Shown here one piece after another: positions 16,828 through 20,812 of a stretch of 64,000 nucleotides of DNA. Source of the stretch: Veillonella parvula DSM 2008 (lineage in GTDB: Bacteria > Bacillota > Negativicutes > Veillonellales > Veillonellaceae); the NCBI RefSeq assembly GCF_000024945.1, contig NC_013520.1, positions 1-64,000 of the forward strand, written 5' to 3'. Position numbers and translations under genes: made by a program. How positions within the stretch are numbered: the stretch's first letter is position 1; each line of letters begins with the position of its first letter. The notes below the pieces were generated by a model that saw only the letters and a program-made list of their open reading frames with translations, ran no database searches and was not told the origin of the DNA.

Positions 16828-17269
16828 TGCAGTAATTTAAGACCTTTATGTAACAATTTGATATATTTTGATGTAACAGTTAAAAATCCGATGGATGCAA
16901 TAAATATTAGACTGATGCGATAAATATTAAACTAATCAATAAATATTGGATTGATGTAACAAATAAATATAAGACTTTAATATAGTAAGTTTATATATGA
17001 ATATAATGTATATAAACTTGATTAAATAACCTCGGTTTGAATAGTGCTTTAGTAGTATGAAATGCATACTATTTGGAACGTATTCAAATTGAGGTTTTAT
17101 TCTATTTTTAAGGAACTTTTACACATATTATTAAGGAAAAAGCAGATAAATTCTGCTATAATAATATATTAGAGATTATAAAATTAATTTATTTTTATGG
17201 TTCTATACATTGATTCGTATACGCTAATGTAGCGGATAGGACTGAGTGTATTGAATACAGGAGGTGCAT
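16828..17269 (+). other. AT-rich intergenic region with short degenerate repeats
   Basis: At 16890-16975, right after the methyltransferase gene, the sequence repeats a degenerate unit of the form GATG(C/T)AA(T)AAATATTA(G/A) about four times. The hairpin at 17028-17100 follows. The rest to 17269 must hold the promoter of the lysine-rich protein gene; I see no convincing pair of promoter boxes. No coding sequence is visible. Confidence 0.45.
17028..17100 (+). terminator. Nested hairpin with T-run
   Basis: AACCTCGGTTTGAATA at 17028-17043 pairs with TATTCAAATTGAGGTT at 17081-17096, and inside it TAGTATG (17053-17059) pairs with CATACTA (17065-17071). TTTTAT follows directly. This is a likely terminator for the methyltransferase transcript, or a leader structure for the next gene. 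Confidence 0.65.
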
Positions 17270-18394
17270 ATGGAACTCATCGATACAATGTTGATTGAAC
17301 GCATTCGTAAAGCTTTAATTAAACGATATGACCGAGATCAACAGATTCAACAAATGATTGAAGAAATTGGTGCAGAGGAAGGCCTTAATGAGTCCGAATT
17401 GGCTATCGTTTACCAAGCTTATTTAGAGGTAAAGGAACGGGTGTATTATACATCTTCTCTCGTTGATTTGTGGAATCAAATTGAAGATGTTCAAAAACGT
17501 ATGGCCTTATTGCATTCTTACGAATCTTTAGAAGAAGATTTATTTGGCGATGTGCTAGGTGACGATAAGGAAGATATTGTCATTTCTAATACATCTGGAC
17601 TTGGCAAGGGTGCTAGTCACAGTGATGATGCATATGCTATGGAACAGATACAATTATCTGACGTTCCTGTGCATCATGATTCTACGGTGGGTATGAATCA
17701 TATTAAATTGAATGAATTAAAATCTATAGGTGGTCTCTTTACTGGTTTTGGTGAAAGCTCCGGTAAGGAAATGGCAGATTTTGAAGATACTGCGATTGAG
17801 CACCTTGATGTAAAACCATTAGAAGGCGTTGAAAGCTTAGCAATTCATCATTTAGATGAAAATGAAGAGTTAAATGTAGATAGTCTTGATGAATTTTCGA
17901 AAGATAAGAAATCAGAGGAAGCTAAAGTGGATGATGAGGATATGTCGTCTATCGATCCATACACGGCGGTGAATGCTTTGTTATTTGGTAAAGCCGGTTT
18001 AGAATCTGATAAAACAAATAAGAAGATGGAAAAGCTTCTTAAAAAGAAATTAAAACGCGTTGACGATGAATGGGCGCGTATCAACGGTTCTGAGGACAAG
18101 AAATCTAAGGACGATAAAAAATCCAAGGAAGAGAAGAAATCTAAGAAAGATAAGAAGTCTAAAGAAGATAAGAAAGATAAAAAACACAAGAAGCATAAAG
18201 AAGATAAGCTTTATAAAGCCGAAGAAAAGTTAAAGAAAAAGAAAGACAAGGCTGAAAAGAAGCTTAAAATCTTAAACGATAAGTTAAAAACAGTCTTCTT
18301 AGCGGATACTTTCAAGAAAAAAGATAAGAAGAAAGACAAGAAAAAGGATCAAAAATCCAAAAAAGATGAATCCGCAAAAAAGCAGAATCGATAG
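17270..18394 (+). CDS. Lysine-rich protein of unknown function, with possible -1 frameshift extension to 18540
   Basis: I do not recognise this 374-residue protein. Residues 1-90 form a helical domain with alternating charged and hydrophobic residues; the middle is acidic; from about residue 255 to the end it is a highly basic Lys/Asp/Glu tail of DKKSKE-type repeats, predicted disordered or coiled coil. No signal peptide or membrane segment is seen. I start at ATG 17270, 5 bases after AGGAGG; an in-frame GTG at 17264 overlaps that site. Near the end is A AAA AAG (18376-18382) in the right phase for -1 slippage; the shifted frame stays open to 18540, adding 52 residues ending in a four-cysteine motif (CGKCKRCKGPKC). 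Confidence 0.8.
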   Translation: MELIDTMLIERIRKALIKRYDRDQQIQQMIEEIGAEEGLNESELAIVYQAYLEVKERVYYTSSLVDLWNQIEDVQKRMALLHSYESLEEDLFGDVLGDDKEDIVISNTSGLGKGASHSDDAYAMEQIQLSDVPVHHDSTVGMNHIKLNELKSIGGLFTGFGESSGKEMADFEDTAIEHLDVKPLEGVESLAIHHLDENEELNVDSLDEFSKDKKSEEAKVDDEDMSSIDPYTAVNALLFGKAGLESDKTNKKMEKLLKKKLKRVDDEWARINGSEDKKSKDDKKSKEEKKSKKDKKSKEDKKDKKHKKHKEDKLYKAEEKLKKKKDKAEKKLKILNDKLKTVFLADTFKKKDKKKDKKKDQKSKKDESAKKQNR

Positions 18395-18540
18395 TTTCCG
18401 TATGGAATAGTAAGGTCTCTGAAAAGATGGCCAAGGAGAGTGCTAGTGCGAAAAAATCAGCAGGTGCTGAGACTATCGACCGTGGATGCGGTAAATGCAA
18501 ACGATGTAAAGGGCCTAAATGTAAGAAATATCCAAGATAA
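18376..18540 (+). other. Candidate -1 frameshift site and cysteine-rich extension
   Basis: The heptamer A AAA AAG at 18376-18382 is the classic bacterial -1 slippery sequence, known from dnaX, and is in the correct phase with the upstream frame. Slipping gives GCA GAA TCG onward, open to TAA at 18538-18540. The encoded tail ends GCGKCKRCKGPKCKKYPR, a believable zinc-binding end. TCGATAGT at 18388-18395 can pair with ACTATCGA at 18472-18479, starting 5 bases after the heptamer, although the loop is long. A one-base indel in the A-run is the alternative. Confidence 0.55.
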
Positions 18541-18778: not shown

Positions 18779-20812
18779 ATGATGAATCGATGGCAGCGAT
18801 TATTTGAAGGTATACGAACAGAGATTAAGGTATTTATCTTTTTCTCTGCTTTGTTGACTGCATTTAGAATCGTGTTTCTTGCAGTATTTCAATCACAACT
18901 AGCTTCCGTGACGATGGAGAATATCCTCACGTCCTTATGGCTAGGCTTTAGATTGAGTCTCAAGACCGTCGGTTCTTTGTGTTTACTGGGCTTTTTAGGG
19001 GGTACGTTGGTGCATACCTTTGTACCCAAATGGCCGTCATTGCGCATTAAACAGGTCCTCTATTCCATTGCGACTATACTGTTGACATTCCTATTTCTGG
19101 GACGCATTCCGTTCTATAAAATCTTCAATTCCTCTTATAATGCGATGCTCATCAATGGCAAAAACGATGATATCGGCGCCATTGTAAATACAGCAATCAA
19201 CGAATATAATGCCCTCATGTACATCATTGGGGCCGTTGTATTGAGCGCAGCTCTTTGTTGGTTCCTCGTTCGTTTCTTAGGATGGGGTGCAAAGAAATAT
19301 AGTGACTATGCTGATGATCTAAGGAATGGTGATGATGCGGATAGTCTAAGAAATAGTGACTATGCAGATAATCAACGACTTTGTACTACTTGGTATCCTA
19401 AGACAAAGAAAACACAATGGATGACGGGCATTGGGTTGACTGTCGCTATTGGCGTACTAGGTCTATTCTTTAGATTTGGCGGTGCTTTCAGCTATACGAA
19501 CTCCATCAACTGGGAAAGTGCGGCTCGCCTCAGCTCCAATCTGTTGAATGAAAATATCCTCGACGATGTGCAGGCTCTCTATCGTGTTAAAAGCATTGCT
19601 AAACGGACGGCTGAGCTTGAGGTTATTAACTTAACGCCTCAAGAACTAAACGAAAAAATCACTGCCGTTGGTGGTAAGTTTAACGGTACAAATTTTGACG
19701 GCTCTTTTACGAGAACCATTACGACACAACGATTAGCGGATCAACCGCAGTCCATAAACCTCGTTCTTGGAGAATCCTATGGCTTGTGGCCGTTTCTCGC
19801 TGAATATAACGAGCCTGGTGCGTACCTCGTTGAACAAGGTCGTAAATACGCTGCCAGCCCTCAAGCGATGAGCACACAGCTAGCCCTCGCCCAAGGTACA
19901 GGCACGATGCCGGCCATCAATGGTTTGTTGACGGGGATGCCTGACACAGGGTTATATCCTAACTATGAAGGTGAAAGTTTCAAAGAGCCTTATGGTTTAG
20001 GTATTGGTCCTGTTATGAAAAAGCTAGGCTACAAGACTGTATTTTGGTATGGTGGCTTTAGTACTTGGCAAAACGTTAAGAACTTTGCTTTATCTCAAGG
20101 CTTCGATGAATTCCACGATGCTTCAGAAATGCCAAGCGAAGACGGCAACGCTTGGGGTGTAGGCGATAAATATTTATTTAAAGCTATTTCTGCCTACATG
20201 GATCAACATAGAGGGGAAAAAATTCTCAATGTTATCATGACTACTTCTAATCATCCACCGTATAGCATCAATGTCGCTAAGGAAGGCTACGATGTGAATA
20301 AGGTAAAAGGTCATTTGCCAGATTCTATCGAAGAAAACGATAAGCAATTGAACGAAATGGGCCATATTTGGTACGCAGACCACGTAATGGGTGATTTTAT
20401 CGCTCGCGAAGAAATAGCAGATCCTTCTGCACTCTTCGTCATTACAGGTGACCATAGCGAACGCTTTAACTTTGCTCGTGAAGTAGGCCCTAATGTGGCA
20501 TCTACTATTCCTATTATTTTTTATGGTCGCGGCATTCATAAAGATTGGCTTGCGCCTAATGCGTTCGGCATGAGCATTCAAATCATTCCAACCTTGGCGG
20601 AATTAATAGGCCGACCAGGTCAAACCTATGAAGCGATGGTACCAAGTTTGTTTACACAAGAGAAATTTGTATTTAATCATAGACTATATCTCGATAAAAA
20701 TGGCAAAGTGTTAGAACAAAGTGCGAGCATGCCTCAATCCTATGGCGATATGATTAAAAACATGCGCGAACTTGCGGCGTGGCGTATTAAACATGGAAAT
20801 AACATTAAATAA
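18779..20812 (+). CDS. LtaS-like sulfatase-fold phosphoglycerol transferase family protein
   Basis: A 677-residue membrane enzyme with about five N-terminal transmembrane helices (residues 1-185) and a large extracytoplasmic alkaline-phosphatase/sulfatase domain. Motifs include LVLGESYG, GTGTMPAINGLLTG (the Thr is a candidate nucleophile), TSNHPPY and TGDHSER for metal binding. In monoderms this family polymerises lipoteichoic acid; in diderms relatives modify envelope glycans or lipids with phosphoglycerol or phosphoethanolamine, so the product here is open. A 27-bp repeat in three copies lies in the linker after the helices. The start has only a weak AGGGG; ATG 18782 is equally possible. 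The 240 bases upstream contain many degenerate TTAGG-like words. Confidence 0.85.
   Translation: MMNRWQRLFEGIRTEIKVFIFFSALLTAFRIVFLAVFQSQLASVTMENILTSLWLGFRLSLKTVGSLCLLGFLGGTLVHTFVPKWPSLRIKQVLYSIATILLTFLFLGRIPFYKIFNSSYNAMLINGKNDDIGAIVNTAINEYNALMYIIGAVVLSAALCWFLVRFLGWGAKKYSDYADDLRNGDDADSLRNSDYADNQRLCTTWYPKTKKTQWMTGIGLTVAIGVLGLFFRFGGAFSYTNSINWESAARLSSNLLNENILDDVQALYRVKSIAKRTAELEVINLTPQELNEKITAVGGKFNGTNFDGSFTRTITTQRLADQPQSINLVLGESYGLWPFLAEYNEPGAYLVEQGRKYAASPQAMSTQLALAQGTGTMPAINGLLTGMPDTGLYPNYEGESFKEPYGLGIGPVMKKLGYKTVFWYGGFSTWQNVKNFALSQGFDEFHDASEMPSEDGNAWGVGDKYLFKAISAYMDQHRGEKILNVIMTTSNHPPYSINVAKEGYDVNKVKGHLPDSIEENDKQLNEMGHIWYADHVMGDFIAREEIADPSALFVITGDHSERFNFAREVGPNVASTIPIIFYGRGIHKDWLAPNAFGMSIQIIPTLAELIGRPGQTYEAMVPSLFTQEKFVFNHRLYLDKNGKVLEQSASMPQSYGDMIKNMRELAAWRIKHGNNIK
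19301..19381 (+). repeat. 27-bp in-frame tandem repeat, three copies
   Basis: Three 27-base units (19301-19327, 19328-19354, 19355-19381) encode SDYADDLRN, GDDADSLRN and SDYADNQRL in the linker between the membrane helices and the catalytic domain of the LtaS-like protein. Because the unit is a multiple of three, copy-number change would lengthen or shorten the linker without breaking the frame. Confidence 0.85.

Follow-up and report, generated by a model that had tools for sequence, protein, structure and literature searches.

A predicted -1 frameshift signal, conserved in Veillonella and a sister genus, would add a four-cysteine tail to a lysine-rich protein

To our knowledge, conserved frameshifts in non-mobile chromosomal genes of bacteria are few. 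In the dnaX gene of E. coli, an A_AAA_AAG heptamer is followed by a downstream stem-loop and preceded, about 9 nt upstream, by the element AAGGA. We found the same heptamer and a downstream stem at the locus described here, and the upstream AAGGA in close relatives of the genome under study, although the shifted dnaX product is the shorter one whereas the shifted product here would be longer, and the present host carries tRNA-Lys CUU as well. We know of no relation between the dnaX protein and the protein described here. The frameshifts of the IS1 and IS3 transposases likewise combine an A-rich heptamer with a structure and yield a longer shifted product; in contrast, the present gene is a single-copy, conserved chromosomal gene with no match to a transposase or mobile element. 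As at this locus, cso2, the gene of the carboxysome scaffold CsoS2, is a chromosomal, non-mobile gene in which a -1 shift and a 3' stem loop lead to a C-terminally extended isoform (PMC5009743); the likeness considered is one of design, and the present tail differs in being a short, basic four-cysteine module with no carboxysome involved. The E. coli copA gene also undergoes a chromosomal -1 shift that gives rise to an additional, metal-linked product, a copper chaperone (PMC5009743), but the copA shift truncates the protein, whereas here cysteines would be added and metal binding is putative. In some other bacteria, the zero-frame stop is reported to follow the dnaX site directly (PMC5009743), and in an enterobacterial survey, 57 of 69 clusters were of the kind in which the product is shortened (PMC4066793). 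Judged from its sequence, the signal described here is canonical for bacterial -1 frameshifting and closest to that of dnaX.

The window, that is, the whole stretch of DNA that was analysed, comprises the first 64 kb of a genome consisting of one contig of 2,132,142 bases. Among the genomes compared, the nearest relatives were V. parvula SKV38, V. rogosae, V. infantium and V. denticariosi. The lysine-rich gene occupies an open reading frame spanning 17264-18394 (Table 1), and its zero-frame product contains 19% lysine and no cysteine. The protein was found to be arranged as a helical N-terminal domain (about residues 1-97), an acidic/linker region and a lysine-rich C-terminal third; across the homologues, the lysine content was 11-21%. 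Neither the lysine-rich protein nor its tail had a match in Pfam or NCBIfam. An AlphaFold model of the N-terminal domain, for which the input was only six near-identical sequences, revealed two helices with a pLDDT of 66, and a Foldseek search with this low-confidence model returned nothing significant. An origin in a mobile element, phage or plasmid was considered and rejected, as the protein had no phage match and the tail had no plasmid match. In three sister-genus loci (L083-L085), the C-terminal half contained long DKVDELADKAxDLKxQA-type repeats in place of the lysine-rich stretch; these resemble amphipathic 11-residue repeats.

Table 1. Positions of the gene, the recoding elements and the tail in the window
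Feature	Position	Strand	Remark
Zero-frame gene, 374 aa product	17270..18394	+	Start ATG 17270 favoured by AGGAGG at 17260-17265
Slippery heptamer A_AAA_AAG	18376..18382	+	In phase in 12/12 tailed Veillonella
-1 frame extension, 52 residues + TAA	18382..18540	+	Cys4 module C-x2-C-x2-C-x4-C
Putative stimulatory stem, 5' arm, TCGATAGTTTC	18388..18398	+	11-bp helix, spacer 5 nt
Zero-frame stop TAG	18392..18394	+	Ends short product; last base 3-12 nt past heptamer in 18/18
Putative stimulatory stem, 3' arm, GAGACTATCGA	18469..18479	+	Pairs with 18388-18398
Second small hairpin, ACCGTGGATGCGGT	18479..18492	+	Predicted fold; directly behind stem

The first-pass annotation had described a heptamer in the correct phase for a -1 slip and an end of the lysine-rich protein 10 bases past it, and both were found as described, with the stop codon beginning at that distance and the zero frame reading GCA AAA AAG CAG AAT CGA TAG. 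An in-phase heptamer was present in all 18 genomes that carry the tail in the -1 frame (A_AAA_AAG in 15 and A_AAA_AAA in three, all of the sister genus), and in each of them the zero-frame stop lay within four codons of it. The codon that precedes the lysine pair was GCA, GTA, GAA, ACA, GGA, AAA, CCA or CAA. Because these codons specify eight residues (A, V, E, T, G, K, P and Q) and the third base is A in all 18 genomes, this A is conserved as a nucleotide and not through an amino acid. Despite the many lysine pairs in the gene, no other in-frame A_AAA_AAG was found in it within the close V. parvula group. A Shine-Dalgarno-like AAGGA was located 9 nt upstream of the heptamer in six of the seven close species; it was absent from the sister genus and from the window genome, where it is degraded to AAAGA. 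Three sister-genus loci (L079, L080 and L081) contained two in-phase A_AAA_AAG heptamers in tandem, reading CAA AAA AAG CCA AAA AAG stop.

An open -1 frame was confirmed between 18382 and 18537, closed by TAA at 18538-18540, and its 52 residues read AESIVSVWNSK...DRGCGKCKRCKGPKCKKYPR; the predicted junction of the shifted product is SAKKAESIVS (SAK.KAESIVSVWNSK). The cysteine cluster that had been singled out as lacking a zero-frame counterpart is indeed confined to the tail, which has four cysteines against none in the zero-frame product, and the same partition was evident across the 18 genomes, with exactly four cysteines in the tail and 0-1 in the zero-frame protein. The spacing of the cysteines was x2,x2,x4 in the 12 Veillonella genomes and x2,x3,x6 in the six sister-genus genomes, where the tail ended in a related module, GRCQVCxNxCxPxxxxCKKRQRALxK. 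Tail length ranged from 33 to 123 residues; the longest, in L080 (G022), was 123 residues compared with 56-59 and contained an insertion ahead of the same four-cysteine module.

Across the seven close species, the -1 frame had a dN/dS of 0.32, whereas the values for the two remaining frames, which were also interrupted by stops, were 1.1 and 1.7. In the cysteine part (the last 22 codons) of the same species, pN was 0.022 and pS was 0.232. Between genomes of the sister genus, the cysteine module had changed at 11.5-17 of about 18-19 synonymous sites and at 8-13 of about 71 nonsynonymous sites, such that the synonymous sites were near saturation with few residue changes. The -1 frame is therefore under purifying selection. 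As for the nature of the tail, searches of Pfam and NCBIfam linked its sequence to no known metal-binding family, and the best match in the PDB was the CGKCRVC structural-zinc lobe of alcohol dehydrogenase, which at an E-value of about 1 was not significant. In a different family of the class, weak matches to the tail (G588, G307 and G089) proved unrelated on inspection; two were a small CGHC-x-VC protein with its own start, and one was an unrelated stretch with stops. Judged by its four-cysteine pattern, which would suit a zinc site or iron-sulfur site of small size, the tail is probably a small, metal-binding cysteine knuckle.

The inverted repeat that had been noted as 8 bases, starting 5 nt past the heptamer, proved to be somewhat better than described, with 11 pairs including one G.U. 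In the window genome, the local fold had a predicted energy of -33.5 kcal/mol versus a shuffled mean of -24.8 (z of -2.66), and the helix began 4-7 nt past the heptamer in 18 of 18 genomes, in keeping with the spacing of about 5-8 nt that marks bacterial -1 frameshift sites. The stems were aligned in an ungapped 5' register counted from the heptamer. In this register, 90.7% of the cells were paired, compared with 24-50% in slid registers, and two-sided changes were present in seven of nine family-wide pairs; the covariation score was 0.721 versus 0.211 in shuffles, although the 3' arms were picked by hand as partners and the covariation count is thereby biased upward. A codon-resampling test, which keeps the tail protein and is free of the choice of 3' arm, yielded p values of about 0.001-0.11 for individual genomes; for five representatives, the Fisher combined value was about 2e-6. 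The two-sided changes show that the stem has been rebuilt by compensatory substitutions. No known RNA element was matched in Rfam at E up to 1. The second small hairpin, which was also predicted in the other six species of the V. parvula group, is a possible candidate stimulator.

To define the distribution of the gene, we searched with its N-terminal domain in a comparison that included one genome per species. Of the 28 genomes of the bacterial family, 21 contained the gene, with confident matches in three of its four genera; searches of 61 genomes from the order and of 398 sampled from the phylum did not find the domain outside the family. Within Veillonella, 13 of 14 genomes contained the zero-frame gene and 12 of 14 contained the tail. 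The frameshift architecture was present in 18 of the 21 gene-bearing species genomes, namely the 12 Veillonella genomes and six of the seven genomes of the sister genus (g4). In two further genomes, G007 (L077) and G023 (L082), the zero frame itself ends in a cysteine-rich C-terminus (MKRCVCKKKKDRCTC and KPCKGCKTKCNPCKKDKK); these are different sequences and not the result of a changed A-run, and they constitute natural versions of the protein that are always tailed. In G014, there was no tail in either frame. The frameshift may have arisen once and then been lost, or may have arisen twice, and the tree of the N-terminal domain did not discriminate between the two histories.

The first-pass annotation had left a choice between programmed shifting and an A-run switch. 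The alignment of homologues clearly favours the former, as the heptamer, the stop, the -1 frame and the stem were conserved together in 18 genomes of two genera; it also revealed that the relatives do not uniformly encode the tail in one uninterrupted frame. A sequencing error or strain-specific indel was ruled out by the identical phase in 18 assemblies, and a chance arrangement was ruled out by its recurrence in the 18 genomes. We consider it very likely, from these comparative data, that this chromosomal gene is subject to programmed -1 ribosomal frameshifting. Ribosomes in the lysine-rich C-terminal region would reach A_AAA_AAG and meet the stem beginning 4-7 nt downstream, whereupon a fraction of the tRNA-Lys in the P and A sites would re-pair one base back. 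The slipped ribosomes would read past the zero-frame stop close by and extend the protein with a basic tail of 33-123 residues that ends in the four-cysteine knuckle, and unslipped ribosomes would terminate to give the protein without a tail. Both isoforms would thus be made in cells in some ratio, with the shifted product likely being the minority isoform.

On the model of CsoS2 and the tau and gamma products of dnaX, our preferred reading is a helical, perhaps oligomeric protein in which only a minority of subunits would carry the metal knuckle, in a ratio set by frameshift efficiency. The zero-frame cysteines at the C-termini of G007 and G023 suggest that the conserved purpose lies in the cysteines, with frameshifting as a means of dosing them. 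More tentatively, the frameshift might act as a dial for the fraction of four-cysteine-tailed, metal- or redox-active subunits that responds to the balance or modification of the tRNA-Lys isoacceptors; we regard this extension as doubtful.

A related explanation, compatible with programmed frameshifting and not exclusive of it, is that the shift itself matters, in that slippage at the end of the lysine-rich stretch would sense the supply of lysyl-tRNA or the wobble modification of tRNA-Lys. The high lysine content of the gene agrees with this, as does the A-site AAG in a host with both isoacceptors; the tRNA loci examined in the window genome included both tRNA-Lys UUU and tRNA-Lys CUU (L119 and L135). 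However, three sister-genus genomes have AAA AAA at the site, and the strong selection on the protein sequence of the tail indicates that the tail product matters, so sensing by the shift is, in our estimate, unlikely. The presence of tRNA-Lys CUU beside UUU should lower slippage on AAG, and the balance of the two could tune it; according to the enterobacterial survey, tRNA-Lys CUU does not preclude such motifs in IS elements (PMC4066793). One review ties the two lysine tRNAs of Thermus to polymerase slippage instead (PMC5009743).

Slippage of RNA polymerase on the A-run, followed by ordinary translation of the altered mRNA, would also yield the tail. The site is an A-run of 6-9 bases across the 18 genomes, reaching nine in G003, and bacterial polymerases are reported to slip at runs of that length (PMC5009743, PMC3711429). 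In contrast, the run is just six A long in the window genome and in several others, which is under the n>7 run length cited for polymerase slippage in one of these sources (PMC3711429), and polymerase slippage gives no reason to expect a fixed, in-phase heptamer or a conserved stem spaced as for ribosomes. With six A and an unexplained stem, this mechanism is very unlikely as the general source of the tail, although it could contribute in G003. We give still less weight to the tail being a separate small gene that is translated by reinitiation or from its own start: ATG, GTG or TTG codons do occur in the -1 frame of some genomes, for example right after the stop in G009 and G004, but the start positions are not conserved and seven genomes have none of these codons in the -1 open frame. 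Least probable of all is phase variation, in which one-base changes in the A-run would toggle the tail between cells or strains; the variable run and the relatives with zero-frame cysteines, which imply that both states are viable, are in its favour, but we reject it because all 18 genomes (one per species) share a single frameshifted phase despite runs of 6-9 A, with none fused by an indel, and it accounts for neither the covarying stem nor the invariant A before AAA AAG.

With programmed frameshifting as the preferred explanation, the locus is one in which a four-cysteine module in a hidden frame would lengthen an uncharacterised protein, marked by a family-wide signal, a covarying stem and strong selection. 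No paper on frameshifting in Veillonella was found in the literature searched. The type of signal is known, but the sources searched contain no description of the gene family or its tail. The GeneTack survey admitted only clusters with five or more frameshifted genes (PMC3711429), so a gene limited to one family could easily have been missed in 2013. Annotation that ends at the zero-frame stop would miss the cysteine tail. Together with the relatives that have zero-frame cysteines, the locus provides a compact, naturally occurring system, in a genus that is anaerobic and human-associated, for testing why only part of a protein pool would carry a tail.

The gene neighbourhood gave no functional hint, as the downstream genes differed among Veillonella, G007 and G014, and the sister genus. 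In the window, the next gene (18779-20812) encodes a sulfatase-fold protein (PF00884) that resembles lipoteichoic acid synthase, and beyond it are two glycosyltransferases followed by a DUF535 protein.
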